From Stentor roeselii (lineage: Eukaryota; Ciliophora; Heterotrichea; Heterotrichida; Stentoridae), in contig RSEH01000087.1 of NCBI GenBank assembly GCA_006503475.1, positions 62,001 through 126,000 on the forward strand: a stretch of DNA of 64,000 bases, in the 5' to 3' direction. Under the pieces are notes generated by a model that was not told where the DNA came from, searched no databases, and saw only the letters and a list, made by a program, of their open reading frames with translations. The position numbers and the translations under genes were made by a program. Positions 2,835-44,164 of this stretch are shown here, in pieces; the first letter of the stretch is position 1; every line of letters begins with the position of its first letter.

Positions 2835-4496
2835 ATGTGTGGAATATGGGCTAGAGTTTTCCAGAATGTTACTGGGTCTGTACCTTGTGATGTAGAAACC
2901 TGCTCAAAAGACGATGAAATCAGGTGTCGTGGACCAGACCTTATAACCCAAGTAACTCTAGAAAACATAGAACTCCTAGGCTGCCTCCTTCATTTACGAG
3001 GATCGCCAACAGCTCAGCCATTCGGAAAAGACAAATCATGGCTTTTATGGAACGGTGAACTTTACGGCAACAACGTTTTCGGTTCAAACGAATTCAACCT
3101 GGATGAAAACGACACTGAACAAATCTACAATCATTTAAAAACATCATCTCCCCTTCAATTCCTTTCCTCAATAGAGAGCTGTTTCGCTTTCATCTACCTC
3201 TCCAACAACGAGTTATGGTTCGGCCGAGACTATTTAGGTCGAAGAAGTTTGATAATATCAAGAACCAGTTCTTTTTTCACAATCTCATCAGTCGGCCCCG
3301 GCACGCAGGTGCCAACAGGAGGAATTTTCAAACTCGACCTTCAATCCGGGCACTTCCATCAAGTTCCTTGGCCTTACCCAGAGCTAGTCACTCCTTCGCT
3401 TTTCCGCTTTTCAAGTTCACAGTCATCCACCCTTCCTTTCCCTGAGTCACTCGAGGTCAGTGTGCGAAAGCGTCTCGTGGGTGTTGGCGACATCGGAGTT
3501 TTATTCTCAGGAGGTCTCGATTGCAGTGTTTTAGCTTTTCTCATCTGTCAAAACTTGCCGAGTCACAGTCAGGTCTTTCTTTTAAATGTTTCTTTTGAAG
3601 AGAACTCACCTGACCGCCTCACAGCTTTGAAAAGTTTCGAAGAATTGAAAAAATTGCATCGTTTGACTCGAATCGTACTTGTTTTAATCGACGTCAGCCA
3701 GGCAGAGGTTTCTGAAGAAAAAGAAAGGATTATAAGACTTATCAGTTCGAATGACTCGAGAATGGACTTCAGCATCGCGACTGCTCTTTTCTTTGCAAGT
3801 CGGGGAAAAGGACGTGATTCCGACACAGGCTTGCCTGTGGAGTTTAATGGAAAAATACTTATGAGTGGCACTGGAGCTGATGAGGTGTTCGGCGGGTACT
3901 CAAGGTATAAGTCAAGCTTTAAACATTATGGACAAGAAGGAGTTGTGAGAGAAATGAGCCTGGACCTTGACAGGCTCTGGCATCGCAACATGGGAAGAGA
4001 CGATCGAATCGTTTCTTGTCATGCAAGAGAACTCAGGTTTCCTTATCTTGACTCTGATTTCTGGCTTTCACTTAAAAATTTCTCTTTGGATGAAGTCACT
4101 CGTGTTGACTGTCCTGGAAATGAAAAGCTTTTACTTAGGAACTATGCGAAAAGCTTGGGATTTAAAGAAACTGCACAGTTTCCTAAAAGAGCAATTCAGT
4201 TTGGAACTAGAATTTCACAGGTTTCTAATAGACAAGACTTTGGATCTAATAGGAAAGCGAAAGGATGGCAAAGTATGAATAAGTCGAAAAATCAGCAGAT
4301 TTCAGAAGAGGTTGAATTTTGTGTTAAGGCTTTAGAGGAAAAAAACAGGGATCAGGGAGAAATTGAAAAAATTGCTGAAGTTATTTTAAGGCTAAGGGAC
4401 CCGGATGTTTCTGTTAATGATAAGAGACACTTGATGAGGGTTTATCTTGGGGATTATGTGAGTTCTATTCAGCATTCAAATGAACTAGAAGATTAA
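2835..4496 (+). CDS. ASNSD1: Asparagine synthetase domain-containing protein (ASNSD1-like)
   Basis: Two domains are visible. The N-terminal class II glutamine amidotransferase domain begins MCGIW, which places the nucleophilic cysteine at position 2 and fixes the start at 2835; the frame extends upstream only with non-ATG codons. It keeps RGPD and NGELYG. The C-terminal synthetase domain has the ATP pyrophosphatase loop SGGLDCS and the motif SGTGADEVFGGY. About 553 aa, close to ASNSD1 and to ordinary asparagine synthetases. The Cys inserted in the SGGxDS-type loop and the diverged amidotransferase half fit ASNSD1 better than canonical AsnB/ASNS. The expected chemistry is glutamine-dependent amidation; the substrate of ASNSD1 proteins is not established. 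The next gene starts 13 bp downstream. Confidence 0.85.
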   Translation: MCGIWARVFQNVTGSVPCDVETCSKDDEIRCRGPDLITQVTLENIELLGCLLHLRGSPTAQPFGKDKSWLLWNGELYGNNVFGSNEFNLDENDTEQIYNHLKTSSPLQFLSSIESCFAFIYLSNNELWFGRDYLGRRSLIISRTSSFFTISSVGPGTQVPTGGIFKLDLQSGHFHQVPWPYPELVTPSLFRFSSSQSSTLPFPESLEVSVRKRLVGVGDIGVLFSGGLDCSVLAFLICQNLPSHSQVFLLNVSFEENSPDRLTALKSFEELKKLHRLTRIVLVLIDVSQAEVSEEKERIIRLISSNDSRMDFSIATALFFASRGKGRDSDTGLPVEFNGKILMSGTGADEVFGGYSRYKSSFKHYGQEGVVREMSLDLDRLWHRNMGRDDRIVSCHARELRFPYLDSDFWLSLKNFSLDEVTRVDCPGNEKLLLRNYAKSLGFKETAQFPKRAIQFGTRISQVSNRQDFGSNRKAKGWQSMNKSKNQQISEEVEFCVKALEEKNRDQGEIEKIAEVILRLRDPDVSVNDKRHLMRVYLGDYVSSIQHSNELED

Positions 4497-4509: not shown

Positions 4510-6282
4510 ATGTCTGAAGAACTGAATAGCTTCGATGTACTCGCTAAAATCAACCCGATTGACTGGATCAACATCCCTGACCCGCTTAGAAATGGCTTGT
4601 TTTGTCTTAAAGACTGCATTTTTAAGTTGAAGGAAATGATTTCGAATACTAATCTCTTGATTTTTAAACAGGCGGATGATGTCCAGAAACGATTTGAAGA
4701 GTCGGGTGAAACTTCGAATTTTTTAAAGAATATGATTGAGGCTTCTGATCATAATGCTAGAACTAAAATTATTGATGTTAGTGAAAACATCACAACTGAT
4801 ATTTTGTTGTTTAAGAAAAACCTTGCGCAGGATCTGGATTTTAAGCAAAAGTCAACCGATAAAAAACTCAGCATCATAGAAGAGTCAATGTTCACTACAA
4901 AAAAAATTGTCCAATGTTTAATGACTCCTAACGAAGTTGAAGAAAAAATAACAAGATCAATCAAAGAAGCTAAGCAAACAATCAAATCTGAAATAAACGA
5001 CTTTATGATTATCCCAGAAATCAGACAGATCAACGTCAGACTTGGGTTTCTTGGAGAAAGTCTCGATAAATCTCAAACATCTCTAGAAGATGTTATAGAA
5101 AAGTTCAAGCTTTCTGTAAGAAAAAATGAAGAAATAGTTGATGAAAAGGTTAGAAACATTGAAAGTCTATTGAATAATCTAAATGAGCAAAGGAATAAAG
5201 ATACAAAAAGCTATGAAAATTTTTTTAAAAATTTAAAAGCTGATATTGCTGGACTTGATAGTCAGACTAATAAAAAAGTGGGAATTATTAACTTGAGCTT
5301 AGAAAAAATTCAAAAACATTCAGGAGATTTTGATAAGAAAATCCATGAATTTAAGGATAATATTTTAAAAATCGATAAGGATTTACAAGAATATAAACAA
5401 AATCAGACTGAAATTTCACAGAAAAGAAAGGAAAAAAGGAAGAATAAGAAAAAAAAGGCAAAGAAAAGTAGAAAATCTTCAGTTAATGATTTAAGTCAAA
5501 AAAAAGAAGAACAAATCACAAGCCAACCAAGCAGAAGATCATCCAGACTCGAACTTCTAATTCCTCACCAATCCCCAGATCCTCAATTCCCATCTCCTAC
5601 TCCCGAGTCACGACTTCCATCAACCCTTTCAAAGCCAACAAAAAACTCAAGACAAAACTCTCAAAGTTCATTATCAAGTCCAATTCCACCAGATCCAAAA
5701 AACTCTTCTCCCCAAAATTCAATCGAAAACGAGAAAATCCCAGTAAAAAAGCAAGTCTTCTGCAAATCTCCAGAATTTAAATCCGAGCCGATGCCAGTAG
5801 TCCCATCAATCGACTCTGAACAAATCAATGAAAAAATAGAAAAGTTGGTCCAAGATCATATATCTAAAATGGAAAAATCGATAAATCAAAGCAAATCTGA
5901 TTTTGAAGCCGGAATTCGAGACATAAGAGACAAACTTTCATGGTTTCCTATGAATATTAATGAAATGAAAGGAAAAAACTTGAACGAGGCCAGAATTTTC
6001 ACGATAGAAGCTCGGATGAGGATGGAAGAAAACTCGAGAGTTGAACAATACAACCAAATCATTTCTTTGATCAATCAACTTAAGGCGGAAATTTCAGTAT
6101 CGACGCCAGTTTCTAATCTTCCTTATTTAAATCAGGGAAGACTTTCAGTGCGACATGAAAGAAGGCTCAGCTCTGATGGTTTTTCGGAATTTGTTAAAGC
6201 GATTCCGGAATCTGAAGGAAAACTTAACCCTTTTGTCCCGAAAGCTTTGAGAAGCATTAACAAGTATAGTAAAATAAATTAA
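4510..6282 (+). CDS. Coiled-coil protein with basic and Ser/Pro-rich middle, 590 aa
   Basis: The first ~300 residues are long charged helices with heptad-like spacing, predicted coiled coil. They are followed by a very basic patch near residues 300-322 (runs of K and R), a disordered Ser/Pro/Gln-rich stretch near 330-430, and a second short coiled coil (~440-540). No enzyme motif is visible. The architecture suggests a structural or cytoskeleton/nucleus-associated protein, but no family is recognised. The start ATG at 4510 is 13 bp after the ASNSD1-like stop on the same strand, so any promoter must be minimal or lie inside the upstream gene. Confidence 0.8.
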   Translation: MSEELNSFDVLAKINPIDWINIPDPLRNGLFCLKDCIFKLKEMISNTNLLIFKQADDVQKRFEESGETSNFLKNMIEASDHNARTKIIDVSENITTDILLFKKNLAQDLDFKQKSTDKKLSIIEESMFTTKKIVQCLMTPNEVEEKITRSIKEAKQTIKSEINDFMIIPEIRQINVRLGFLGESLDKSQTSLEDVIEKFKLSVRKNEEIVDEKVRNIESLLNNLNEQRNKDTKSYENFFKNLKADIAGLDSQTNKKVGIINLSLEKIQKHSGDFDKKIHEFKDNILKIDKDLQEYKQNQTEISQKRKEKRKNKKKKAKKSRKSSVNDLSQKKEEQITSQPSRRSSRLELLIPHQSPDPQFPSPTPESRLPSTLSKPTKNSRQNSQSSLSSPIPPDPKNSSPQNSIENEKIPVKKQVFCKSPEFKSEPMPVVPSIDSEQINEKIEKLVQDHISKMEKSINQSKSDFEAGIRDIRDKLSWFPMNINEMKGKNLNEARIFTIEARMRMEENSRVEQYNQIISLINQLKAEISVSTPVSNLPYLNQGRLSVRHERRLSSDGFSEFVKAIPESEGKLNPFVPKALRSINKYSKIN

Positions 6283-8038: not shown

Positions 8039-8312
8039 GGGTTGTTAAATTAACATTTTAGATTCTTACTCAGATTTGACTTTTTATTTATTTTAATGAG
8101 TTTCCTTAATGATTAAAGGATTCACATTAAAACATCCAAATCATGAAATTTTATTTAAAATTTTTTTAGAATACTTGAAAATTTTTCAATACTTAATCCA
8201 ATAAACTCTATACTGCCCAAGTGAAAATCCACCAAAAAATCTACAAACCTTAAAAATCCATTCAACTATCAAAACAACCTTCAGAATTCATGTAAATTCC
8301 TTAAAAAGGAAA

Positions 8313-9032
8313 ATGTTAAACAATGCAAACTCTGAAGAAAATAGTTTATTTTCTTCTGAAGCTTTTCCAGAACCCTCGACTCCCAAAACTTCAAAAGTGG
8401 GAAAAATTTCATCTCCTTTTTCGCAGTTTTGTATGAATTCTTTGTCCCCGATTCAAATCCGAAGTTCATCGCCAGTGCTCTCTCCAACGATGCGATCCCC
8501 AAGTCACTTGACAAAGACTCGTCCAGCAAGACAGATTCAAGTGATAAACTTCGCGACTATTGATTCAAAGTTGTCCTTGCAAGCCAGTTGTGTGCCAGTC
8601 GAGATCAAAGTTATAACAGATCTTCCAAGAATAAGACCGCGAAAGCCGACCAATGACAAGTCAGTCTGTTGCAATTGCCAAAAGTCAAGATGCCTAAAGC
8701 TATACTGCGATTGTTTCGCATCAGGCCAATACTGCGAGAACTGCAGTTGTTCTGAATGTTTAAACCAAAGCGACTTCGAAGAAACCAGGAAAAACGCGAT
8801 GAATTCCATCCTAGAGAAAAATCCAGAAGCTTTCAACCCGAAGTTAGTGAATTTAGAAGATAAGGTGAAACATAGCAAAGGATGCAATTGTAAACGTTCT
8901 GGATGCACTAAAAGGTACTGTGAGTGTTTTCAAAGCGGAGCGAGATGTAATGATAAGTGCAAATGCGTCGGGTGTAACAACAAAGAAGCTCCAAGCAAGA
9001 GAAACAACAGAAAGTTAATTAAAAATATTTAA
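8313..9032 (+). CDS. Tesmin/TSO1-type CXC (CRC) domain protein, LIN54-like
   Basis: Two cysteine-rich CXC motifs occur at residues 116-151 and 188-222, each with the C-x-C-x4-C-x3-YC-x-CF pattern. They are joined by the conserved linker motif, here EKNPEAFNPK at 168-177 (family form R-N-P-x-A-F-x-P-K). This is the CRC DNA-binding module of LIN54, tesmin and plant TSO1, which binds CHR-type promoter elements and, in LIN54, is part of the DREAM/MuvB cell-cycle regulator. The N-terminal 110 residues are Ser/Pro-rich and probably disordered. At 239 aa it is much shorter than animal LIN54. The CENP-A-like histone gene starts 15 bp downstream. Confidence 0.9.
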   Translation: MLNNANSEENSLFSSEAFPEPSTPKTSKVGKISSPFSQFCMNSLSPIQIRSSSPVLSPTMRSPSHLTKTRPARQIQVINFATIDSKLSLQASCVPVEIKVITDLPRIRPRKPTNDKSVCCNCQKSRCLKLYCDCFASGQYCENCSCSECLNQSDFEETRKNAMNSILEKNPEAFNPKLVNLEDKVKHSKGCNCKRSGCTKRYCECFQSGARCNDKCKCVGCNNKEAPSKRNNRKLIKNI

Positions 9033-9047
9033 GGATCCCCTTTATAT

Positions 9048-9419
9048 ATGAGCTTTGCATCTATTGACTTTTCTTTCTCTGAAGGTGAAACTATTGACAA
9101 GTCAAGTGAAAGTTTAATGCAAAAAAATCCTGGGGATAAGCCTAAGGAACATGCTTTTATGAAACTTAAAGAGTTTCATGTTGTAATGCAAGGACTTTTT
9201 GAAGAGTTTGGGTACAAAGAATTCAAATGGGGCGAAGATGCTAGCAAAGCTTTACTTCATGGAGTTCATGAACATTTTATTGGAATTTTTGAAGATTCGT
9301 GGGCTTGTGCTGAACATGGACGGAGGGTCACTCTGCAGATTAGGGATCTTTTTCTTGCTAGAAAAATTCGCAGTAGATTTGAATGTGTTGTTGGCTCGAT
9401 GCAGTATTTGAATAATTAA
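9048..9419 (+). CDS. Divergent histone H3 variant, candidate CENP-A/CenH3
   Basis: 123 aa. Residues 40-112 align end to end with the H3 histone fold: IFEDSWACAEHGRRVTL (80-96) matches H3's LFEDTNLCAIHAKRVTI, and RDLFLARKIR (99-108) matches KDIQLARRIR. Loop 1 (FGYKEFKWGEDASKAL) is one residue longer than in H3 and carries Trp at 61, as CENP-A does (NWQ in human). The first 38 residues are short, acidic and Ser-rich, with none of the H3 tail modification motifs. A longer loop 1 and an unrelated tail are the usual marks of centromeric H3, but centromere function is inferred. The alternative is a specialised non-centromeric H3 variant. Confidence 0.8.
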   Translation: MSFASIDFSFSEGETIDKSSESLMQKNPGDKPKEHAFMKLKEFHVVMQGLFEEFGYKEFKWGEDASKALLHGVHEHFIGIFEDSWACAEHGRRVTLQIRDLFLARKIRSRFECVVGSMQYLNN

Positions 9420-9717: not shown

Positions 9718-12027
9718 ATGTCTAGCCAGCATGCCAAAAATCTTAAAGCTACAAAAGCTTTAACTCTATCAACAAACCAGTTTTTAGTGAGTCTTCCAGG
9801 ATCATTAAAAGTGTTCATCTACAGTCTTTCATTCCTGCCATCTATCCCTTCTGACAACTCGAAGCTGAAGAAGTTTTTAGTGAATAAATCCAGATCAGAT
9901 CTCTCCAAGTATCTTGAAGGCTTCATTCATTGTGGAGAAAATATTTATTCAACAAAAGAAATTTTCACTGGAATTAAAGAACAGGGTGATGAGACCAGCT
10001 CATCTGAAAGACCAGAATTTTTCAAGTTTTTAATTGAACATGATGGAATCTGCTATGAAGGGTCTTTAGTGCCTTGTGGATCTCTGGAGTTTAATGGCGA
10101 AACTATCAGGGATGAAAGGGCTTTGCAGGTTTTAAATATTTCTTTGAGGAATAAATTAAAACTTTTGAGATTCGTCCAGTTTGGCACCTATAGAAATCAT
10201 TACAACTCCCTAGACAATAAACCAGTTCGAGGTTTCCCTGCAGAGATCTGGCCAGGTTTTTTCACAAGTATAAACAAACTAAAAGGTGGTTTAATGTTAA
10301 CCATTGACTCATCCTTCAAACTCCTAAGAACCGATAGCGTATTAGAAGTGATATCAGATCTTCTCCATCGTCACAAGCAAAATAAAAACAAAGTCAGATC
10401 CTTGTTAAAAAATTCAATAATCATGACTTTTTACGGTTCCCAAAACGTATACAGAATCGACGACATCTTATTCGAAGAAAATCCTCTCGACCCTTTTCCA
10501 GACGAGTCCAAAGCCAAAAACTATCTTCAATACTTCCACAACGTATACCAAGCAGCCATCAAATTCAAAAGCCAACCATTAATCCTAGCAAGAAGAAGCT
10601 TAAAAGACTCTCCAGTCCGTTTAGTCCCTGAGCTCTGCAGAATGACAGGCCCTGAGTCCCTCGGCAACACTTTAAAACTAAAAAAAGCAGTTTCCGAGAT
10701 AACCCGACTCAATCCAAACGAAAAGCTCGAAAAAGTCTGCTGCCTGGCAGAGCAGCTTCAACAACAACATGACCCAAAATGGCAGATGATCAACTCCGCG
10801 AATCCTGTGACAGTCAACGCGAAGCAACTTCCTTACCCAGAGGTTCTCACCAACAATCAAATCTGGAAAGTAACAGAAAAATCTGTTTTTAACCTGAAAA
10901 AATTCAGCCCTGTTAGAAGTCAGCCTTGTTCAAAGTGGATGCTTTTTTGTTGTGAAGGACTTAAAGGCCTGGCAGAAGATCTGATTAAAGGGTTGAAGTC
11001 TGCGAGTGGTTTTATGTCGCAAGAGTTGAAAGACCCTCTCAAGGTCTGCATTCCGAATAGTGAAGACGATTCTAGGCTTAGAGGTTTTCTGATGTCAAAA
11101 CTGAGAAGTGAGGCACAGCTGGTAGTTTTCTTGGTGCCTAAGAATTCTTCAATTTATGCTTTGATTAAATCAGTTTTGACGAAGGATTTTCCTATCGTTT
11201 CTCAGGTTGTTACGGATTATTCAGTGGAAAAAAACGATCCAAGTATCTATTTGAAGCTTTATACTCAGATATTGTGTAAAATTGGAGGAATACCCTGGAC
11301 TGTCAAACTCCCTTCACTTCCAAGATACACGATGATTGTAGGAATCGACGTCTGTCACAATAGTTTCACTGCAAAACAAAGCGTTCTAGGCTTTTGGGCT
11401 TCTTTAAATGCAAGTTGTACTAAAGGGTACTCAAAAGCTGTTTTTCATGGAGTGAATCAAGAAATATCTGATATTTTGACCCCTGTTTTTAATGAAAGTA
11501 TCAACAAATTCATAGAAGTTAACTCAGGTCACAAGCCTGAATGCATCGTTGTGTATCGAGATGGTGTAGGAAAGTCTCAATATGAAAAAGTAGTAAATTT
11601 TGAAATACCACAAGTGGTCGCTGCGATAAAAGAAATCGACTCTCAATGGAACCCTCAAATCGTGGTCATGGGTGTCAACAAGCGGGTTAATCAGAGGTTC
11701 TTTTTGAATGGCAGGAACCCTGGACATGGACTTGTCGTGAATGAAGGGGTTGTGCTAGATAATGCGAATTTTTACTTGATTAGTCATTTTTCTACGATTG
11801 GGTGCATCACTCCCACTCATTATCATGTCGTTGTTAATGAAAGTAATATTGATGAGCAGATTTTGTATCAACTCACTTATGATCTTTGTTATCTTTATTT
11901 TAATTGGCAAGGAGGCATCAGAGTACCTGCTCCTTGCATGTATGCGCACAAGATTGCTTATTTAGTAGGAAAACATACGGGAGTCCTTGTTGATTCTGAT
12001 TTATTGCAGAGCTTCTTTTTCTTGTAA
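9718..12027 (+). CDS. Piwi-clade Argonaute protein, catalytically complete
   Basis: 769 aa with N domain, PAZ (~200-300), MID and PIWI domain (~460-769). The slicer tetrad appears intact: D544 (in GIDVCH), E582 (in NQEIS), D615 (in YRDGVG) and H744 (in YAHKIAYLVG); spacing of 38, 33 and 129 residues is close to that of known Argonautes (40, 32, 138 in human AGO2). It ends in hydrophobic FFFL, like the terminal Leu of the family that inserts near the active site. Ciliate Piwi proteins carry small RNAs that direct DNA elimination during macronuclear development or silence genes in vegetative cells. Which role applies here cannot be told from sequence. The start has the ATAAATG context. Confidence 0.93.
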   Translation: MSSQHAKNLKATKALTLSTNQFLVSLPGSLKVFIYSLSFLPSIPSDNSKLKKFLVNKSRSDLSKYLEGFIHCGENIYSTKEIFTGIKEQGDETSSSERPEFFKFLIEHDGICYEGSLVPCGSLEFNGETIRDERALQVLNISLRNKLKLLRFVQFGTYRNHYNSLDNKPVRGFPAEIWPGFFTSINKLKGGLMLTIDSSFKLLRTDSVLEVISDLLHRHKQNKNKVRSLLKNSIIMTFYGSQNVYRIDDILFEENPLDPFPDESKAKNYLQYFHNVYQAAIKFKSQPLILARRSLKDSPVRLVPELCRMTGPESLGNTLKLKKAVSEITRLNPNEKLEKVCCLAEQLQQQHDPKWQMINSANPVTVNAKQLPYPEVLTNNQIWKVTEKSVFNLKKFSPVRSQPCSKWMLFCCEGLKGLAEDLIKGLKSASGFMSQELKDPLKVCIPNSEDDSRLRGFLMSKLRSEAQLVVFLVPKNSSIYALIKSVLTKDFPIVSQVVTDYSVEKNDPSIYLKLYTQILCKIGGIPWTVKLPSLPRYTMIVGIDVCHNSFTAKQSVLGFWASLNASCTKGYSKAVFHGVNQEISDILTPVFNESINKFIEVNSGHKPECIVVYRDGVGKSQYEKVVNFEIPQVVAAIKEIDSQWNPQIVVMGVNKRVNQRFFLNGRNPGHGLVVNEGVVLDNANFYLISHFSTIGCITPTHYHVVVNESNIDEQILYQLTYDLCYLYFNWQGGIRVPAPCMYAHKIAYLVGKHTGVLVDSDLLQSFFFL

Positions 12028-26868: not shown

Positions 26869-29800
26869 TTAATCGTCGAGTTGAGTGAATAAGGCTACTC
26901 CTCTCTTTATCCAGTGAGAGGAATCTAAAAGAGATTTCAAATTAATTGAGAAGATGTAGTTGTTTGAATGACCTGTGGAGGTTAGCTCTCCACATCTTAA
27001 TAGGGTACGGTATACAGGACATTCATACATTCCTCTTATAAAAGAATCAGAATTCTGCACCGGCTTTAACCAAATAACAGGAAATTCTAAATAAAGCTGT
27101 CTTGGTTTGCTTTCCTCAAGAAATTCTCCATTCCATCCAGCTCCTTCCAAATAAAGACCATTCATAAAAGCTCCAAATTCAGGTGATTTTCCAGGAAATG
27201 AATCCAAGATTTCAAATGAAAACTTTAAAGTATCAATTGGAATTTTTCTTATTCTAGCAAATTCTTGAAGCACTCCAGTTAAAAAAGACTGAGTAAAAAA
27301 AAATCCTGAAATCCAAAAGACTGAAGGACGACCTCTGATGACCCAATCTTCAAAAAACTTGATTCTTTTATTTAAGTCTTCGATATAAGAAGGCAGGTTT
27401 TTGCATGTGTTGTAAGAAACTCTGTTCCAGACTTCTGGAATTTTGTTCTTGAGTAAACTTTCAGCTAAAACTTCATATTCCCAGGTTATAACTATCGCTC
27501 CTTCGTAAGCTTTTTTCAAAATCAGCAAAGTGTGCTTTATGGTATCGATCAGTTGATTATATCGGGTTAGTTCTTGAAGTAAAACTATTGATAAACTTTC
27601 ATGATATGTACCTGGGTACTTTTCACGGGCTTCTGCGAGATTAAAAGAATTTGAAATTTTTCCAAGTATGAAGGAAATCATCGAGAGAATGGTATTTTTC
27701 TGTTCATCAAACGAAATACTTACAGCTTGTGGCTGAAGAGCAAGTAACCTCGAGCATAATTCATTGCTTTCTCTGATAGACCTCGAAAGTTCTGCATTTG
27801 GATGCAATCCAAAGACTTCAGGACTCTGGACTTGAGGAAATTTTCTGATCTGGTCGACGATATCTTCAATTTTTTCAAACTGATGAATCTCATAACCTTC
27901 AACAGTAGAAACTTTTCCAGTCTGAATAATTTCATTGCAATAACTCTGCCTCAATAACTCATTTAGTGTCTTTCTATCCCAGTCATCAGTAACTCTTCCT
28001 CCATAGTTGCAGTTCGCGGTTAAATATTGAAGAGCTTCAAAGGGAGGCTCATCGAAGTTCTCAATCATTAAAAAGAGCTGTTTATATGATATTCTCAAAT
28101 CACTTTCATTGAACTCGTATTTAACGTTCCACCCAACAGGACCGAAAAGTCTTCTCTCCTTAATCACACAATGAAAAAAACAAAGTGCATAAAACATTTT
28201 TTTCCAAACTTCCGGCTTACTCGAACTATCATAAAACTCAGTTTCACTTCTCGAACTGACAACATACGAGTAAATATCAAGTAAACTACTACAAAGTCCT
28301 CCAGGTGGCTGAGCAACCAACTTGATCGACTTCTGAAGCAACAAAGAAGGAAACCCTTCAGCCGGACTCGAAGTAAGAATAAGTCTAAAGTCCTTATGAT
28401 AACAATCACTATTTTTCACGGAAAGTTCTTCAATCAACTTCTCAACAGTCGGAAGCCACGACAATGCGAGATGACAGTTTTGAACAAGTACCCAAAACCC
28501 AGAAACAACAGCTTCCCTGATGATTTTTTCTGCTTTTTCGCCCTGCCCTTTGCCGAGTGAGGCAGTTTTTAATTCCCATCCATTTTCAGCGACGTATCTT
28601 TTAATCATGCTTTGAGGGTCATTTCCTGCTGTTAGAATCATGATCAAAGGTCGAAGAGGACTTAATTCTTCAACTAAGGACTCGATTTTTAACATTTTTG
28701 GAACTAAGAATTGTTCTCCGAGGTATGATTTGATGAAACTCTTTACTGCTACTCCCATACTTTCAGGCTTCAAGGCCCGAAAGATTAGTAGGCGGGTTAT
28801 TGGAGTTGTGAATAAAAAGGACCTGGGAAGGATCTCTGAAAAGTCTTCGAATGAGGGAAGTTGTACCCAAGGCTTGTCGGTGTTGATGAAAGTTTTCCAG
28901 ATTTCAGGGTATTTTGTGATATGATCACGAAGCCCTTGAATCTGAATATCAAGTTGGCAAACTTCTCTCCACATCTTATCCGTCAAGAACTCAGTCGGAT
29001 TTTCTACTTCTTCTGTAACTCCACAAACCCCAGTCAAATAAAACCTCCACTGCCAAGGCTGCATTTCTTTTTCAAACAAAAGAACCCTAACACAAACAAG
29101 AAAAGCAAACAAAACACGGTCCTGATCCTGCAAAGAATGAAAAATTCCTTCAAAAACCAATTCCCTAAACTTAATCTTGATATTTTTAACCCTTTCATTC
29201 ACATCTTTCGACTTTTCCGCCTCAACAAGTCCCTTTTTAAAGATATTCACAAACCAAGCCATCGAATACTGATACATACAGTCAATATTCGCAAGATCAG
29301 CAATGCAAAAGTAAAGAACAGCACTAATTTTAGAAACAGGTTTATAAATCCCCTGAAAATTCGAGATTTTCTGTTCAGCATGTTTTGAATTTGCGAGTTT
29401 TTTCTCAACTTCATTAGAAACGACTTTAGATTCAGTTAAAGAATTAATCAACTCCTCGCTTTCCAAAATATTTTCGCCTCCAGACTGAAGCAACTCCAGA
29501 ATTTTCTCTTCCAAGAGCAGCATGTTTTTGATGTACTCGACTGATTGGACAACAAGTCGATTTCTTTCTTCAGTTTCTCTTGGAATTTCAAATCTGCAAA
29601 TAAGGTTTAATAGTTGTTCACTCAGAGCTTCTTCAGTGATTGAAAAGTTCAGAACTGTTGTTTTCGTGAAAAGTTCTGGTGAAAAGTTAGGGTTTGAGTA
29701 AGGTGTGAAGAGGAATAATGAGAATTTTTCATCGAATGGTCGAGAAATGTCACCGATTTTCACTACTTTCATTCCTTCGTGAATGAAAAATTGCTTTAGA

Positions 29801-32800
29801 AGAAGAGGGTCGAGTAATGGGTCGATTGTGTCTTTTACTTCTTCGATTATTAGAGTGGAACCTAGGAGTAATGAGTTGTCTAGGATGTAGTTGAAGTCGT
29901 TGTCGTCGAACCTGGTTTTGTAGAAAGAAGTTTTGGTTTGAGTTAGCATCTTGTTTAGCCATTTTATTGCTTGACGCTGTGGGTCGATGATTAGTGGGTA
30001 CATTATTGATAGTTGAATGATTATCGCGTTCTCAGTTGACACTTTATCACTTGGAAGACCATTAAGATTCCACTTCTGCACAGTAATCTGCTCCACAACA
30101 CTACTTGCAAAGCTAAACTCTTCATTACACAATATATTCCCATCATTTAAAATAAACGGAATCCACATTTCATGCACACACTTTTCACGATAACTCCAAG
30201 AAAAAGGTCCTAAATAAGTGATGCACGCTGCAGACAACAAGACATCACCCAAAAGATTTTCCATATCTTTTTCATATTGTTTTACTTTCAAAGTCCAAGA
30301 CTCTCTCTCTCCTCCAAGTTGATCAATCAACTTAACAGCACGGTCAAGTTGCAGTTCAACTCTCGCGATATCATCACTTAAAGCTTTTGTTTCAGCCATT
30401 TGAAGATTGAGTTTATTTTGCATTTCCGCAATTAACTCTTCAATTTTTACAAGTTCATCTTGCTTTATCTTAAGAATTCTTGATTTTTCTGTTAAATCGT
30501 CTTCCGCTATTTTTAAAGAAGCTTGCTTGGGCATGACTTCTTTGTTGACATGATAATATTTGTACATTGCCCGCACCCATTTGCACAGTCCTTCAGCAGC
30601 CCTTGAGGCATTTTTGACGATATCAGGGTAAAACTTCGGCATTTCTATAAAAGGAGTGATTTTATTGATTGTCTCTTCGTCAAGTGACCCTCTTTCAAAA
30701 GTTTTTAACTTTTGAATAAATTTCGGAACTGACAGAAATTTTTTTCCAGCTTCATAAAAATCGAGTTGAAATATTCCAGGGTTTTTAGGGTCGTTGATCC
30801 TGACAGGTTTCAGCTTGTTGATAATGGCCAAAGCCTCTAAGACCAATTTGATTGTATCAGGAGGCTCTCTCATTGATTTGACCTGGTCAATGTCATCTCT
30901 TTTTAGAGTGTCTAAAGCCTTTATAGCTGCTTCCAACTCGGGTAAAGCCTTGTCAAGTGCTTCTTGGCATTCTTTCTTTATCTGCTCAGCCATTAAGGTC
31001 TGCACTTGAGAAGCTTCTTGCTCGTTTTTTACGAATTCTCTTTTAACGTCAGCATCTAAGTTTTCCTTTTGGATGTTTTTGAGGATTTCGTGAGCGGCTT
31101 GAGTTTTTTGTTGAAGGACTGGCTTGAGTTCTAAGAGTTCTTTTCGAAGTTCTTGAACATGTGCTTGAGTTTTGTTTAATTTGCTGATGCCCATGGAGTA
31201 CTTGTGGCTTTGTTTTATTGTTGTTTCTTCTTTGATTTTGTAAAGCTTTTTTAGGGTTTTTAACTGCTGGATGTAGTGGGCTGGAGTTATGTAACACATT
31301 CTTCGAGATTCGGAGAAGTATTGGTCGGAAAGGTGCTTTATTGACTCGTGGAAGTTTACACAGATTTTTATTGAAGGAGTTTTTGACTTTTCGGGAACGA
31401 TTGACTCGGTTTGGAAGAAATATTCAGCGATTGCCTCTAAGCCATCACGTGGCCAGTCAAAAAACCAGTCAATAGTGCAGCAGTTAACCAATGATGGGTA
31501 CTCTCGAATGCGAGTTCTCAAAGTATCTCCTTCTGGAAACATGCAAATGACAATATGTAGGTTCCTTTTGATATTTGCTAGAAAAACTTCCCATCTTTCA
31601 TTGTTCGTCATCTGGTTGAGTTTTCGGTTCATCCTCATTGATTCGTTGATGCCTGAGATTTCTTCTTGAGTGAAGATGTCATGATAGTATCCTGTGGACA
31701 AGATGCAATTTATCACTTCTAAAAAAGATTCTTTTATTATTTCGTTGTTTCTTATCAGAAAGACTAGCTTCTTGTTCTCAAGACCTGTGATTGTTAAGAC
31801 TGATTTTATGTCCTCGGTCCATTCGTTAAAGTTGTAGGTTTTAGTTAGTTTTATCTGGTAAACTGAAAGTTTTAGCATGTATGCTGCTAGCTTTGTTAAA
31901 CTCGTTCTACCGCTACTACCTCCTACTCCTATTAATAGTAAGTTACCGTTGTTCCAGGCGAGGACTCGGGATATTCGGTTTATATGTTGAACTGCATAGT
32001 CAAAGAAAATCAAGTTAAGCTTATATTCAGGATTATCATGATTATAATCCTCTAAACTTTCCTTCAACACTTTTTTCGCTCTATTTAAACTAGGTACAAG
32101 CTGATACACATTTTCATACAAATAATTCAAAAAAACCGGTTCACTTTCAAAATTTCTCAAATCACATGAAAACTCATTCTCAAGTACTTCTTCTAAAATC
32201 TTTCTAAAAGTCATTAAATCATTTTCATTAATAAGTCGATCACTAAAGACTCTTAAACTTTCATGCATCCAAAGTTTCAATAAAATGATGGATTCCTGCA
32301 TTTTTCCAGGAGGTACTGAAAAAATTCCTTTGAGTATATTTGTCAAATCCCTGAAATTGAACACATAATGATTCTTCAAAGGAGTTGGAGGCAACATGAT
32401 CAAAGTTTTATGATAAAGTTCAATAGTTCCTTTCGCCATTAATTCAATGCAAGAAGTGATTTCAAGACTATGTCCTTCCAATCCGATGTTCAGTAAAGTC
32501 TTTAAAATGATGAAAAGTGAAGTGGCTTCATACTGAGAAAAAATACTGATGAAGAAATGTGATAGGCATCGAGGAGAAATGCCATTTAAGCCAGCCTGAA
32601 CCCCCATAGCAGCAACAAACTGCACATTTTCCAGTACCTTCAACTCTAAATTGCTACGATCATACAAAAAATTCCTATCAATAGCGGTTCTCAGCAGTTC
32701 AACGGCAGGTTGAGCTCCAAATCGTTCCTTACCCGGCATGCTAAGGTCATCAATCATGAAGACCCTGAACTTATTAACCTCAGGACTTAAAAATCCTTTC

Positions 32801-35800
32801 CTAATACGAGACAAGTTATTTTCCAAGAAATTCTGAACATCCCCAGAACTTGAGCTTCCAGTGAACATTGTATAAGCGACTTGAAAGCTTTTATCAAGGT
32901 CGACTAGAATATGCTTTAAAAGAACAGTCTTTCCAGTTCCCGTTTCTCCAGAGACAATGATGCTAACCTTTCTAGTAATCAACTCATTTATCAAGAACTT
33001 GTAAGACATCAGCGAGGCCGTCGGTACAAAAATATTTGAAATTTCTGAATCACGGACAGGGTCAAACAACAGGTCTTTAAAAGGTTTCCATTCATCAGAA
33101 ACCTCTGAATAAAAAAACTCTTCAAAGTCCCCAGGGACTTTAATAGTCTCTTCAGTCAACTTCTTCAAGAACTCAGCTAACATCTTTCTCTTCACTTCCA
33201 CAATTGACCCTCCTAAGGTCCAAAAAACTGAAAAAACAAAAAAATTTGTAAGTTTTTCCTTTTCCTTCTCAGTTTCACCTGGTTGAAGAATCGCTTTTAT
33301 TTCTTGTTGAAGAGCGTTTTTTGAGATAATTTTTTCTATAAGGTTTCCCTTTCCCGATTCAGAGTTTTCATCAGAATTATCAGGTTTTAACGAGTTTCGA
33401 CTGAAGTTTTCCTCAGAAATATCATGATCATGGTGTTTCCTAGATTTTCCCTTGGAAATGATAAGACATTCAAAGAGAGTAATCATATTTCGAGTCATGT
33501 GACTTTTAGACCACTCTTGGTTATCAAGTGCCCAGTGTTCTAGACAAGGCAAGAAAATCGATTCGTAAAGTTCATGAAAGAGTTTTTTGTACCTAGGAGC
33601 CAAGAAGTCCAAAGGCGGGTAAGAGCACCATTGACTGATCAACACATTAGGCCCTAGAACGTCTTCTGAGTCAATAAAAATCATTCCACATCGACTGATC
33701 GTCGCTGGACTCGCATTTGCCAGACTGTCAACTTCAATGATTATTCTGATAAGCTCAGTGAGTTTGATTATCTCGCCATTAGGAAGACAGAGTTTCTTAT
33801 TATCATCCATGACTGTGTTCATACTTTCAATCCACAAAGCATCCACTGGACCATCAAGCACAATCCACTTGAAACCTGCACTGTTCGAGTCACTGAAACT
33901 TCGAATTGACTGCGCTAAGATCCCGTCTTTCCAGTCAAGAGAAATCGGGTCTGGAGCTCCATAAAGCTCTGCTAAAGTTATCGACTTTGGGTTTATGTGA
34001 ATCGTTGATGTTGGGTTTTGGTAACTCAAAGCTTTAGACAGTACATTTAAAGCTGTCGATTTTCCTGCCATGCTTTGTCCAATAATCATCAGGCCATGCC
34101 TGATTAAAATAGTGGAATAAACCTGGATAACCTTCTCAAAAAACTTTTTATTTTCTACAAGTTTGCAGTCAATAATTGCAAAACTGATCAACTCTTCAAT
34201 AGGATCCTGTTGCAGATCTTGTGAAACTTCTGGAAATAAATCCTTGACAATTCCATCAAATAACGGTAAATCTTGATTAAAAAACTTAGGAATATTCGAG
34301 GTTTTAATAGCTTTCAACACGATTTTATCTTCAGAATCATCAGTCCGATGCTGTTTAAGCCACCCGGCGGCTTTGATGATAGTACTGACCGCTCTCATTC
34401 CATAGTCATAATGAACTTGAGTCGACAGTTGTTCACTTGCAAGTCTCAAACTATTCGTAATCTTCTGAGAAAGGACCCTAGCTTGTCTAAACCCGTAAGA
34501 ATAAAGACAGATTTCAGCAATCATTGCGTAATCAGGAAGCATCATCGCGACTGGTCGAAAAAGCGCTTTTAAATTATCAGGCAACTTCGTCCTTCCCGCG
34601 TAGTCCGGGTTCATGGTAATGAAAATGGCGCAGGAAGGGTCCAGTTGGGTGAAGTCTTCTTCCATGTAAAAAGACCTGGCTTGCTTTTGAACTGCTGTTT
34701 GGATGCTCAGGATCTGCTCTGCGATCACTGATAAAACTTCTAATTCAATTCGGTTGAACTCGTCGAAACATGCCCAGGCTCCACAGTAACAGAGACCTGT
34801 GAAGAACTTTGCCATGTAAATGTGGTCTAAACGGTCTGAACAGTTGAAAACTACACATTTTTTTGCTAGGCTTTTTGCTAGATCTTTGGTTGTCTCGGTT
34901 TTACCGGTTCCTGCTGGACCTTCTGGAGCTCCTCCTAGACTTAGGTTTAGGGCCGACATTAGGGTTCGGTAACAACGGTCGGTTAGCTCGGTGATGACCA
35001 GCCTAGAACTATTCCCAAGATATTCATATCCATAAGTCCTACAACAATCCAGCATTTTAATAACCATAGTCTTCTCATTCAAGTAGTACCTCATATGTGA
35101 AAACCAAGAAAAATCATCACAACTCTGAACCTGTCTTTGAATTAAGTTGCTAATAACATCCTTGCTATGCACATCAAGTACAACCATAGTACTAAAAGTA
35201 AGTCTTTCAAGTGGACTAAGTTCCCCTCTAACCGCATTGACCAAAACACTTAAAAATTCTTCTTCATTTTCCAAAAGTTGATTTAATCCATTCTCAAAAA
35301 TAGCTTTCTCAACATTTCCAGTCCAAACCGCCATGAGTCCAGTCTGAACAAGTTGAGAAGGCCAATTATTGACCCAAGTTCTAATATCAGCGACTTCAAC
35401 GTCTTCAAGAGCTCCGACCAGCTGTCCTCTGAGAGACTCTCTCATTTCTTTCTCGAGGTCAACCATCCAGACCTCGATACTTTTTATTTCGCCGTCGATG
35501 TAAAGTTCTACAAGTCGTTGAAACATCACTTGTTCACCTTCAGGAGAAATCATTCCAACTATCTGGCCTTGTTGGACTATTACACTTGATATCGCTTCGA
35601 AGCACTTTACGATGTACTTTTGGATTGTGACTATGTTTTGGGAATTGGAGAGAATCATTATTAGCTCTTCGTTTGAGAGGAAGTAGAACCGTGGAAAAAT
35701 CTTTCTTTTACACATTAGGTACTCGTTTAAACTCTTTAGGATTGAGTCTAGATGCTCGTTTCCTGTGAGAAGGGTTTCGTAGATCTTGGGACCGGATGTG

Positions 35801-38800
35801 CAGTAGTCGTAGACGTTTGGGTTGATACTCACATTATGCATAATAATCTCCCATTGCCCATTGATATTTTTAAACTTAGTAGCCGGAGCTGGTAATTGTT
35901 TCGTGATATCAACATTAGTAAATATAGGCTGAAGATACTGCCAATTTTTTTGAAACTTTTCCCATTCTTCTAAAACTTCCTGTATTTTCAACAAATTCAT
36001 CTTCCACATTGAAATTTCATTCTGAATAAAGCTAATATAAGGAGAAGCGGACATAGCAATAGTTCTCATCAAATGTTCATTTAAAGTTTCCCAAATAACA
36101 TCAGTATTCGTTAAAATAAACGAAGACTTATAAGGACTAAGCTGAAACTTAATCGAACCCCATTCATTTTCCATTTTTTTCTTCGCATTTTCAAGTCCCA
36201 TCTCTTTAGTAGCGAGGTCAGAAACCGCATCAAGATGTTCCAAATGATTCAAAATCTTCAAATTAATCAAGTCCCTAAGAGAAACATGACTAGACCTAGC
36301 AAGGTCAATCCCAGTGAGACTTTTCAATTCAAGCCAATGTCTTTCCTTCATTCCAGGGTTATTGACACATTTAATGACAGGTAAATAAGGTCGAAACTGA
36401 CTAAGTTTCGCCAGAAGTGTTTTAATGAGTTTTAAAGGCGCGAGTTCATGTTTCAAGACAGTCCTTTCAAGTTTTCCGAGTTCATTAAAGCAACTGACGA
36501 TTTCAGTGCCAATCGCTTCTCGATGCAAAGTGAAGATTCTGTCGTCGTACCATTTGGGAAGCCGGTCTTCGAAGTCTCTGATGAAAAACCAGATTTTGCA
36601 GTAAGGAGTGAATTCAGACTTGATGTCAGTCAATTGTGTGAAGTCAGTCACTGGCTGGAAGATGATCTGTTCACGGTTGTTGACTATTTTCGTTGTTTCT
36701 GAAGCAGCTTGTAGACCCACTTGAAGCTTTTGACATTCTAAAGCGAATTTTTCGTATTCTTCGTAGTTGTCTTGCTGTTTTAACTCTTGAAGAGAGCTGG
36801 ACATCAGTTGAATGTCTGCAAAAAGAGAAGATTTTTGTTGTTGGAGACTGGATGTGAAGGCAAGGATTAGATTTTCTAATGTTTTTAAAGAGTTTTCTTT
36901 GTAGGTCTTCAGGTTAGCTGAGAAAGATAAACAGTTCCAACATCTTTCATAGACGTCGTAAGGGATAAGTCGCCAATAATTCTCTAGAATTTCAATAATT
37001 ATCATTATCTTTTGAACACCCTCATCGATGAACTCAAGTTTCAAGCTAAACTCATTGAATAGAAAAGTTCTAACCTCTTCAAGTTCTTCCAAATCTTTCG
37101 GAATATGTTTCACGATTTTCACAACTTCTGAGTAAACCTCTTCAACTTCCCGCACATTTTTTAATGACTCGCCAAGTAAAATTTGAACCATTTCATCAAT
37201 ACCTCGATCTATAATATCACTAACAGCATTTAAAGTCCCTGCTGAAAAAATTTTCCAAATTCCTAAACTTTTTCCATTTTTTCCTAAAAGTTCATGAATG
37301 TCGACTTTTATTCTTTTTAGTCGAAAAATTTCGTCTTCTACTTTGTCGATGTTTAAATCGCCTTCGAACTTTTTGCTCATTTCTCCTGGTTTTATTTTTA
37401 GGATAAAGTTGAACTTTTCTATGGAATTCATGAAGTTCTGAAGAAGGCTTTGGTGAAGGGAAAGGTTTTGATAGATTGAGTTTAGGATTTTTCGCGTTTT
37501 TGATGGGAAGTCGCTTGAAATATTAAGAAATGATGGAGTTCGAGCAGGACCTGTTTGGGTTGTGTAAAGACAACTCAGGTTTGAAACCTTTTTGAAAGTG
37601 TTTTGAATGAATCTGGTAATAGTTGAACAGTAGTGAATACCTGGAGGCGAAAGTTTAAATGTTTTGGAATTTGAATCGATTCCTAAGTCGAGTTTGAATA
37701 GACCTAGGTTTAAAAGGCCTGAAAGCTCAAAGTCGTCTTTTTTTAATGGAACTCCTGAGGATAGTTTCCATGACAGAACATTAATCGGCTCAAGTAAAGT
37801 ATTATTCAGCTCAACAAGACTCTTAAAGATTATTTTACGTATCGAGTCTTCAAGTCTCAAGTTACACATAAATACAAACTTCTGATACAAGTCCAACATA
37901 CTTTGTGGCAGGTTTTCTTCAAGTTCTACAAATTGCTTGCTATAAGCCTTTGATTTAAGTTTCTGCTGATTTTTGTCAATTCTCTTCTGATCCTCTTGTG
38001 ATAAGTAGCTTTGAATTTCATATTGAATATCAAAAATCGCGTTTTGAGCTTCTTTCATGAAGTAATCAAAAGCTTTTTCATTCAAAATTCTAAGTTCTTC
38101 TAAGTAAATCGCTTTCTGGTACTTCGGAGTTATTCGCAGGTCTTCCCAAAGAAGAAGGATTTCGTTTAGCTTTTGAGAAACTAGGATGCGGGTCTTGTCG
38201 TTGTGCATGTGACTTTCGTTCACGTTTTTAAGACTCTCTATGAACTTTTCTCTGTTGTTTTTGGTTTCGTAAGACTTCGAAGGCCAGCAGGGTCTTAGGG
38301 GAATGTGGCGGGTTTTCTTCATTTTGTAGTCAATGTGTTTGCAGACTAGATTCCAATTATCTTTGTATTCGTTTACTAGAGTTTTTACTCTTTCAAATGA
38401 CACTTTTCGCATTCCCTGAAACACAAAAAGACTAAAAGGTTCACAATCCCTAATAATTTTATCCAGTACCTCACCAAACGATTCAAACCCTTTCCCCTGA
38501 AATTTTTCCACAACAAAATGAGAATTTTCATATTTCCACAAAAATCTTCTAGGATTATAAACCTCATGAGATTCCTTCAAATAAAACTCAAGAACCTTTC
38601 TATATTTTTCAAGTTCGACCCTATTTTTCCCCTGCATAAACTCAAGTATTTTTTCCAGAACCTTAACCGAAATCGGAGGTTCAACCTTGATAAAATTAGA
38701 GATGAACAAATTATACTGACAAGTATTTTCGACAGAATTTTTATATTTCTTCGCTTCCGAAATCCTCCTTTCAAACATTTCAGGGTCCTCATCTTCAAAC

Positions 38801-41467: not shown

Positions 41468-42479
41468 TTATAAGCATCTAGAATATGAGATTGTGTTTAG
41501 GACTCTAGAATAAAAGATGAAATCGTTTGGAATGGATGTGAAATTATTTAAGATTTTTGTTTTGGAGTATTTATTGTCAGGCTTGGCTTGAAAAAATGAT
41601 TTATGTAGATTTGCATTCTTAGGATTTGAGAGTTTTATTATTTGATGTACTAAAGAAATCTTTATAGGCTTGTTTGATTTTAGGATTTCTTTGTTTGAAC
41701 CATTTTATTATTGTAGACATTATGATAATTAGATTTAGATATTAAACTTTTAGGGATTTTATGAGTTTTATGGATTATTCGTGCTTGGAAGAAAGATCTT
41801 TTGACCCAAGATTATGATTTAGCAGCTAAATAGTTATGCATATAATTAATGAATTTAAAAATATAATAGTTATGAACTAATTTTTATTGAATCCATATAA
41901 AATAGTGAAAATATAATAGTTTTGAACTAATTTTTCTTGAATCCATATAAAATAGTAAAAATATGTTATAAAATTAGATAGTTATTTTGGAATAATTATA
42001 CTATACAGTGTTTGATTATATCATAAACAAATATAGTTTTAAATTTAATTATATATCCTATTATTTATGTAAGATTGTAGAGATTGAGATTATTAAGCTA
42101 TCAATATAAAGTAATACTTGAAGTATTTATAAAGAGATAAGTATTGGATTTAAACATAGTAGTCCAATCCTCCTTAAATTTATAATCTTTGAATAATTCC
42201 ACGGATATAATTAAGGTACATGAATAATTTCCAACTCAAAAATTACTTTAGCATAGAAATCGAATGAAAGAACTTCGAATTCATAGAACTTCTTACTGAG
42301 ATAAAGAATGATCAATTTTTAAGTTATTCATTTATCGAAACTAATATTGAATCTTTTTCATAATCTTTGAAGTTTCCTCTACACGATAATCCTAAATGCA
42401 ATATAAAATATATTTACACTACTAACCAAACAGATGTAGTCAAATATTTGAAATAAAAAATTATAATACTCAAAAGTTT
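41468..42479. other. AT-rich interval upstream of the zinc-finger gene
   Basis: About 1 kb with no intact gene. The only structure seen is the 50-bp tandem duplication at 41861-41960. The lower end may hold further decayed sequence of the pseudogene that begins near 42480, but I cannot align it by eye. Confidence 0.45.
41861..41960. repeat. 50-bp tandem duplication, two copies
   Basis: Unit 41861-41910 is repeated at 41911-41960 with three differences in 50 bases. Each copy holds atataatagt and gaatccatataaaatag. Non-coding and AT-rich. High identity suggests a recent duplication. Confidence 0.85.
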
Positions 42480-43850
42480 ACTCTAAAAGCTCTTTATTAT
42501 CATATTTCTTGACAAAATAATTATTTGGTCAAGTATTACAATAAACTTCATCTTTGGAAAGCATCTGCTGAAACTCTGGATCATGAGGTGATGGAAATTT
42601 CTTACAATTAGCACAGATTAAACAATCCAATTATAGAATATGTATAATTAGTATGATTAAAGAAATGTGATTATAAGAAGAAGTTATTTTGAATAGTAAT
42701 TAACTTGAAGAATTTCACGATTATGAATTTTAAATAGTTTTCTTGGTTTATTATGAGATGGGCAGATAAATTCTAAAACCTCCTATTTTTTATAAACTTT
42801 TGTTTCTACACAAATTTTATCGTCAAAATCGATTCTCACATCTAATTTTTATTCTAATTATCACAAAAGGTAGATATTATCAGAAAATTTGTTTGTAATT
42901 AAGAATCAGGTTAGCTATTGAGAACCATTCACTATTTTCATATGAATAATAGTTGCTCTTCACTTCATATAAAAATTCTGGGATAATAAAACTGTTTATC
43001 TTGATAGTTATCTCTCCATCAATTAGGACAGCAAGTCTGTGAGTCAGATCTTTGAATGCATTTCAGCTGATTTTTAAGTGATGTGGGAGGGTAAGGCAGT
43101 AGTTTATAGCTAAAGGTTACTCATATAAAAGACAGATATAATTCGCAGAAATTCTAATATTTAAAACAATATAAAATCTTCATCTCATACAAAAAAATTG
43201 AAAATAGTTCAGTGATCGAGGTTATCATTCTTAATAAACTTAAAAATCTCGGTTTAAAGCATTAGTCTTCGCTTTTTGTAGTGATTTCTGCTGATTCAAA
43301 CACTGTGCTACAGTCTTTGGTATTTCCAATTCCATCAGAGTAGCTTTTTATCACAACGGTAGCATTTGAACTGTGGATAGTCAATATTTATTAGATACTT
43401 GTGACTCCTATGCAAGTGGGTGATACAAAAAGCGTCTTTTTGAGTGTAAAACAAAGTCTTACTTAAATTAAAAAAGAAATCATCAACTCCCATAACTTTA
43501 TTGTTCATAAAAGTTTTTCAAAGTAAGAGGAATGGTTTTTTAAAGTATTCGTCGATCAAGTGTTTCAAATAGTTCTTGAAAGATTGAAGTCTAAACAGAA
43601 AACATTTTGGTACTTGTACACAGCTTTTGAAGTATAAGTAGAAATATTCTCTATCTAAATATTTCCTATATTTTTGGAGAGGTAGTCTTAGGTAGAAGAA
43701 AGTTATTCAAATTTTAATGAAATCACGAGTTTTAATGAAGTTTCAAATGTTTATGATAAATAGGAGTTCGATGCGCTGAAGAACAATCTAAACAGTAGAG
43801 TTCACCCAGGGAAGTTTTATGTGGTAGCTTGATTTATATTTTCAAAGTTT
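42480..43850 (-). pseudogene. Decayed paralogue of the zinc-finger proteins at 39590 and 44165
   Basis: Short segments in the same order and orientation as the 39590-41467 gene, offset by about 2.42-2.45 kb (rising toward 2.57 kb at the 5' end), retain recognisable similarity. The clearest is 43000-43070, where the minus strand reads CIQRSDSQTCCPN then QDKQFYYPRIFI, against CLKKTDQNTCCPID and RTNKFIYPKFIY in the intact gene. Around 42540-42620 the minus strand reads CANCKKFPSPHDPEFQQ, close to NCKNCKFPGADISIQE of the 44165 protein. Frames are broken many times by stops and indels; no long ORF survives. The limits are approximate and the C-terminal beta domain was not found. Confidence 0.75.
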
Positions 43851-44164
43851 TTTAAGGAATATCATGTAAGTAAGTCTATCTAATTTAATGTAGACCTTAT
43901 TTAAGAATGGGTTTTAATAGTCTCGATCAGTTGGACTTGAAGTATAAAGTTTAAGCTAGATGTTCGATGGGTTTAGATCTGGGTAATCATCTTTAGAGTT
44001 TATAATCCTCACTATAAAAGAATAACAAAGCTAAAACAATCTAAAACTCCCCTGATTCAATCAAAAATCCTAAAATAATCCAAAATAAATCTAAACAATC
44101 CAAAATCTACTTTCAATAGCAGCCCTCCTCTGAAACCCAAAAAAAAATCCCAAATTCTAGATAA

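Follow-up and report, generated by a model that had tools for sequence, protein, structure and literature searches.

Histone H3 genes that have diverged strongly from the canonical form raise the question of whether they encode the centromeric H3 (CenH3), which in ciliates serves the micronucleus (PMC4770206), or an H3 variant of another kind. This question is posed by an ORF on the forward strand (9048..9419) of a 64,000-nucleotide stretch of DNA, referred to here as the window, which a preliminary description had read as a CENP-A-like H3 with an acidic tail. The ORF encodes 123 amino acids followed by a TAA stop; its frame is intact, and the predicted protein has a pI of 6.06. The frame can extend at most 15 bp upstream of the ATG, where the in-frame TAA at 9030-9032 closes an upstream gene for a CXC-domain protein. 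Codon usage in the frame of the H3-like ORF amounts to 0.45 bits per codon in the tail and 0.42 in the core, compared with 0.07-0.29 in the remaining five frames. This lends the ORF weak support, because the measure fails in a control at the start of the CXC gene, whose first 96 codons score 0.26 in frame and 0.55 in a reverse frame.

A Pfam-A search assigned residues 57-108 to the Histone family (PF00125) with an E-value of 7.4e-9 and 36.3 bits, at a cut-off of 26.4 bits for this family. The only other family listed was TFIID-31kDa (E=0.19, 12.3 bits). In a phmmer search against PDB chains, residues 43-109 aligned to H3 with a best E-value of 1.7e-7, and among the 60 best of 172 sequences at E<=1 a single chain was labelled as CenH3, a Cse4-Scm3-H4 fusion (8.2e-7). 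Combined with a hand-made alignment, these searches locate an H3-type histone fold, comprising helix 1, loop 1, helix 2, loop 2, and helix 3, at residues 43-108 (9174..9371, +). The Pfam and PDB matches, together with the kept residues R116, T118, H113, and D123, indicate that the protein belongs to the histone H3 family, as the preliminary description had proposed. Its further claim of an end-to-end match to H3 applies to the fold and less so to helix 1, since Pfam aligns only the C-terminal 52 positions of its model. The protein lies outside canonical H3, whether replication-coupled or replacement, in that an ARTKQTARKS-type basic tail is absent and the core, with 33% fold identity to the host H3, is far from near-identical.

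Structure prediction adds little, as both AlphaFold models are of low confidence. The single-sequence model (mean pLDDT 48.1) contains helices at residues 40-53 and 101-121 with strands between them and no clean histone fold, whereas the model built with four H3 rows (mean pLDDT 44.9) places three helices (32-53, 65-89, and 98-122) at histone-fold positions. The four rows were drawn from eight eukaryote-like H3 loci inside MAGs, which were found in genome contigs with canonical H3 as the query and are useful just as alignment rows. The same query gave no match in viral contigs. A search for relatives of the H3-like protein yielded 27 pattern matches in prokaryote genome contigs and 2 in viral contigs, and 0 were confirmed in either set.

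Loop 1, GYKEFKW (residues 55-61; 9210..9230, +), is one residue longer than that of H3, in agreement with the preliminary description; its placement rests on the hand-made alignment, with which MAFFT agrees. In this alignment, Trp61 falls on Phe84 of H3 and the corresponding Trp of CENP-A, so that the Trp noted earlier at the CENP-A position is indeed present. The other informative residues occupy positions that we take to be DNA-contact or H3-H3 four-helix-bundle sites. Within the bundle, C110, H113, R116, D123, L126, A127, and I130 are the same as in H3, and two residues are changed (A114 to G and R129 to K). The helix-1 arginines for DNA contact are gone (R69 to V and R72 to Q), and two further contact positions are altered (Q85 to G and M120 to Q); R83 to K and K115 to R are conservative, and R116, V117, and T118 are kept. 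CENP-A and Cse4 agree with each other against the host H3 at tabulated positions 78, 84, and 110. The H3-like protein matches them at 78 and 84, but its Phe78 also occurs in human-type H3 and its Cys at 110 is the H3 state.

The first 38 residues, described beforehand as acidic, are mildly so, with 7 D/E, 4 K, a net charge of -3, and a pI of 4.70. More telling is the neutral character of the fold (net charge 0, pI 7.14). Positive charge is lost across the entire protein, and its loss within the histone fold is the most unusual trait of all. By comparison, the genome's five canonical H3s have a pI of 11.03 and a second divergent H3, C495, has a pI of 9.96. We know of no acidic CenH3.

On the N-terminal side, residues 18-28 (KSSESLMQKNP; 9099..9131, +) may represent a remnant of the end of the H3 αN helix, for which the evidence is moderate. 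Six of the 11 residues are identical to those of the αN end KSTELLVRKLP, and as good a score was reached by 14 of 4000 shuffles against αN alone and by 174 of 4000 when the comparison took in the entire H3 tail as well as αN. The tail had been said to carry no H3 motifs; this is correct for the canonical basic tail, while residues 18-28 qualify the statement. An apparent insert of 14 residues (29-42; 9132..9173, +), derived from the alignments and an intron scan, would separate the αN-like stretch from helix 1, and the scan detected no 15- or 16-nt GT-AG intron within it. When the αN register is extended by hand, R49 becomes S, K/R53 becomes T, and R63 becomes Q; in the ungapped register, R63 corresponds to Lys. 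If the match reflects homology, the protein would have a near-absent N-terminal tail, an αN without arginines, and the 14-residue insert before helix 1. In human CENP-A, R49 is weakened to K and αN is shorter, features through which CENP-A nucleosomes are described as holding their DNA ends loosely (PMC7475651).

At the other end, an extension of residues 109-123 (9372..9416, +; SRFECVVGSMQYLNN) contains hydrophobic residues, with RFECVV following helix 3. It is absent from the five canonical H3s of the host and from C495. The hydrophobic C-tail of human CENP-A is reported to bind CENP-C (PMC7475651). A six-frame search of the genome for the CENP-C cupin domain (PF11699), which was run with no CENP-C positive control and is weakened both by its six-frame design and by divergence, returned 0 candidates.

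The histone complement of the host was surveyed in its 44.4-Mb assembly of 522 contigs. There were 39 matches to PF00125, of which 30 were read as loci and five further ones are H4-type; the weak sub-cut-off matches on C519, C331:38881, C22, and C146 were left out of the reading. Among the matches read, seven H3-type genes were recognized, namely five canonical ones (C50, C490, C331, C70, and C38), C495, and the gene in the window, which is single-copy. Being the sole divergent single-copy H3 of the genome, a supporting and non-defining mark, does not apply to the latter, since C495 is a second. C495 (G000:C495:186080-186430, +) encodes a basic protein of 117 aa, is likewise single-copy, and carries Trp84 and the stretch HCKRKTLF, which has the form HxxRxTLF as in CENP-A. 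It has no loop-1 extension, and its loop-1 region is shorter than that of H3 to an extent that depends on the alignment. It also has neither a C-terminal extension (it ends in RIRGEN) nor a canonical tail, and its αN is not recognisable. The fold of C495 is 44% identical to the host H3, 45% to CENP-A, and 28% to the H3-like protein. Used as a query, C495 retrieved 8 matches: itself, the five H3s, the gene in the window, and one weak match. The genome contains four ordinary-looking H4 loci, and no divergent stand-alone H4 was present among 14 PF15511 matches.

The survey also brought up histone folds in other contexts. At L060 (G000:C231:2715-2903, -), a near full-length H4 (KGLGKVGAKKRHRRIARENITG...KKQGRVFYGF) lies in frame inside a larger ORF of 873 aa (translation L060:1027-3189:-), 721 of which were read and which matches VWA_3 (von Willebrand factor A domain) at E=4.9e-21; the arrangement resembles an H4 gene that has been taken up into a gene for a VWA protein. 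At L029 (G000:C440:158501-158833, -; translation L029:1429-3285:-), an H2A-type fold forms the C-terminal part of a 619-aa protein, with Pfam Histone at 485-595 and a long front part left unmatched by Pfam at E<=0.001. Five proteins, L013-L017 (on C281, C68, C6, C283, and C127), have a LPLARVKKIMKTDEDVKMISSETP-type histone fold, which we take to be NF-YC/archaeal-histone-like.

In the hand-made alignment, the fold of the H3-like protein is 33% identical to the host H3 (22/66), 31% to CENP-A (21/67), and 28% to Cse4 (19/67). The phmmer scores are 34.0 bits for the host H3, 26.5 for C495, 26.4 for Cse4, and 24.9 for CENP-A. A phylogeny was computed from 7 rows and 68 columns (the H3-like protein, C495, CENP-A, Cse4, and three H3 rows), and it leaves 4 of 4 inner branches open. 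The branch of the H3-like protein is very long (2.67). The best topology separates it, together with C495, CENP-A, and Cse4, from the three H3 rows with a support of 49/77, which is not significant. Grouping it with CENP-A and Cse4 alone (p-AU 0.147) or with C495 (p-AU 0.15) is not rejected, and in terms of path length the H3 rows lie closest to it. According to Postberg 2010 (PMC2939574), tree position cannot assign uncharacterised divergent H3s to an H3-like or a CenH3-like function.

The ciliate context assumed for the gene is supported by the telomere repeat, code use, and a likely tiny intron. A triple repeat of CCCTAACA was counted 220 times in forward and 327 times in reverse orientation in the assembly, with 0 occurrences of the reversed-pattern control; among the matches listed, the forward repeats lie in the first 80 bases of contigs and the reverse ones at high coordinates. 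This telomere unit is reported for Blepharisma, which, unlike the host, reads UGA as Trp (PMC9942806). When TGA is read through, the window has 28 frames of >=250 codons, of which 18 contain no TGA at all. Five others hold 7-11 TGAs each (2855-3847, 2941-3729, 5211-6122, 8093-9028, and 10103-10888) and share their DNA with a conserved gene or a longer open frame, and in the remaining five the read-through adds 2 to about 41 codons at one end. TGA as Trp is thereby ruled out as a common sense codon here. At 48184 (-), a WD40-type frame is interrupted by a TAA that lies within 15 nt bounded by GT and AG (GTAAAGATTAGGCAG). Removing these 15 nt restores the frame on reading by hand, and they are likely a tiny intron of the heterotrich type. 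Stentor is described as having the standard code and introns of 15-16 nt (PMC9505925), which makes a Stentor-like heterotrich the most likely host. Elsewhere in the window, a dynein heavy chain ORF runs for 4200 codons without interruption (26869-39471, -; AAA_6 E=3e-141), and there is a 2.7 kb region of low G+C (41468-44164; about 0.27-0.29) with no kept ORF of >=100 aa and no Rfam match. The bacterial SSU model RF00177 gave no match.

The immediate neighbours of the gene are a 239-aa protein of the two-CXC (TCR/tesmin) type upstream (8313..9032, +; TCR/CXC domain E=3.6e-22) and an Argonaute/Piwi protein 298 bp downstream (9718..12027, +; Piwi E=8.3e-68, PAZ E=1e-17). The gap of 15 bp between the CXC gene and the H3-like ATG, already pointed out in the preliminary description, is real, and the two ORFs share a frame with the TAA between them. 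This neighbour and its spacing look ordinary and carry little weight, because the genome has at least 39 CXC matches and because, across the window, 6 of the 21 intervals separating same-strand ORFs of >=100 aa, counting this one, measure <=32 bp; the ORF list behind this count is mechanical, and a few of the short gaps may be split genes. As the genome also holds 12 Piwi matches including the neighbouring one, no significance was attached to the CXC and Piwi neighbours.

Our preferred reading, to which we assign a probability of roughly 45%, is that the gene encodes a single-copy, strongly diverged, specialised, and loosely DNA-binding H3 variant of a heterotrich ciliate, without an assigned role. 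Such a protein would pair with ordinary H4, consistent with the four H4 loci of normal appearance, and form an H3-type tetramer joined through the kept bundle; both steps are most likely, given that helix 2 and loop 2 are retained along with most residues of the four-helix bundle. Its grip on DNA would be weak and the wrapping loose, because other residues stand in for the arginines of helix 1 and probably of αN, and the protein as a whole carries a slight negative charge. It may thus mark nucleosomes with loosely wrapped DNA, suited to a special chromatin state, and serve in one nucleus or stage, such as the germline micronucleus or the developing macronucleus, with centromeric use as one candidate role among others. 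Relative to the canonical H3 of the same genome, it is alike in its fold, loop 2, helix 3, and most bundle residues, and differs in having no basic tail, replaced helix-1 arginines, the insert before helix 1, the longer loop 1, Trp84, an acidic character overall, and the C-terminal extension. By published description, strongly diverged H3s are likewise found in other ciliates, including the micronuclear or developmental H3.7, H3.8, and H3.9 of Stylonychia and Oxytricha, some with demonstrated nucleus- or stage-restricted use (PMC4122937, PMC9958989), and H3v1 and H3v2 of Paramecium (PMC4770206). Several considerations weigh against the specialised variant. Both AlphaFold models are of low confidence, and the single-sequence one lacks a clean histone fold. 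The near-neutral fold may mean that the protein is absent from nucleosomes altogether; the longer loop 1, Trp84, and the extended C-terminus point more specifically to CenH3 than to some variant; and the best tree, unsupported as it is, sets the protein on the CenH3 side.

The strong rival is that the protein is itself a CenH3, either the only one or one of a pair, with a role in mitosis and meiosis of the micronucleus, which we regard as possible yet doubtful. The longer loop 1, Trp84, the divergent N-terminus, the RFECVV-bearing C-terminal extension, and a probably weakened contact between αN and DNA are shared with CenH3, CENP-A, or Cse4; the C-tail, K49, and shorter αN of human CENP-A run in the same direction (PMC7475651). 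The two CenH3s of Paramecium, CenH3a and CenH3b, comparable through their published description rather than their sequence, also have a longer loop 1, a divergent N-tail, and a C-terminal extension, and low constitutive expression is reported in Paramecium (PMC4770206); the best tree, at its non-significant 49/77, groups the protein with C495, CENP-A, and Cse4. However, a divergent N-terminal tail is also reported in non-centromeric divergent H3s (PMC4770206), and the marks of a centromeric H3 named in the preliminary description, while present, do not single out the protein, as Trp84 is common to C495. Its phmmer scores against Cse4 and CENP-A fall below the one against the host H3. It retains Cys110 of H3 despite its agreement with CENP-A and Cse4 at 78 and 84, is acidic, and comes from a genome in which the six-frame cupin search, run with no positive control, found 0 CENP-C candidates. 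Above all, the label exceeds the evidence because C495 exists in the same genome. C495, which lay out of sight of the preliminary description, is basic, and its identities of 44% to the host H3 and 45% to CENP-A surpass those of the H3-like protein and are comparable to the fold identity of 44% reported for Paramecium (PMC4770206). The two proteins are alike in single copy, divergence, Trp84, and the lack of a canonical tail, whereas C495 differs in its charge, shorter loop-1 region, missing C-terminal extension, and unrecognisable αN. On sequence grounds, each carries some CenH3 marks that the other is without: C495 is the better candidate by similarity and the best alternative CenH3 of the genome, and the H3-like protein is the better one by loop 1 and C-terminus. 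Since Paramecium has two CenH3s (PMC4770206), a second divergent H3 does not exclude membership, and the CenH3 label is a possible one, a fair hypothesis that goes beyond the evidence. CenH3 is described for Tetrahymena and Paramecium, while for Oxytricha and Stylonychia the reports concerned mention candidates only (PMC9958989, PMC2939574); among the papers listed on ciliate or Stentor CenH3, from a largely open-access literature, no title or abstract opening describes a heterotrich CenH3.

An H3-fold protein that stands outside nucleosomes and DNA packing, for instance as part of a complex for transcription or a chaperone complex, would account for the neutral fold, the pI of 6.06, the loss of R69 and R72, and the weak secondary TFIID-31kDa match. 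We consider this unlikely, as loop-2 DNA contacts (R at 115, R116, and T118) and most of the four-helix bundle are kept, and the TFIID-31kDa match is generic, being also obtained with canonical H3 (E=0.12). Identity with TAF9 in particular is ruled out by the genome's own clear TAF9 on C14 (70.1 bits) and by the 12.3 bits for TAF9 against 36.3 for Histone. That the gene is a decaying, functionless duplicate of H3 or CenH3 is highly improbable: the branch length of 2.67 and the scant room that 15 bp leave for a promoter of its own would fit decay, but the frame is intact, loop 2 and helix 3 are conserved, codon usage exceeds that of the other five frames by the measure that fails at the CXC gene start, and gaps as short as this one are ordinary in the window. 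It is scarcely credible that the ORF forms the C-terminal half of a CXC-histone fusion produced by stop read-through or splicing. The shared frame and the 15-bp distance suggest such an arrangement, yet a shared frame is a one-in-three chance, gaps of this size are not rare, and 18 of the 28 long frames run unbroken to TAA or TAG. A fusion through a tiny intron is ruled out by the intron scan, in which no 15- or 16-nt GT-AG intron spans the TAA and the sole GT-AG stretch across it, of 20 nt, would shift the H3 ORF out of frame on removal.

A bolder form of the loosely binding variant, which we judge quite improbable, holds that this acidic H3 builds H3-H4 tetramers that barely hold DNA and acts as a second, non-wrapping H3 beside a basic CenH3, C495. 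If this were true, the CenH3 job would be split between two proteins in one ciliate, and a non-wrapping H3 would be used, for example, at micronuclear kinetochores or in opening chromatin for DNA elimination. With two candidates, the gene in the window and C495, the germline-centromere mark of a giant ciliate becomes directly testable, and an H3 with a pI near 6 would probe the extent to which a nucleosomal H3 can dispense with positive charge.
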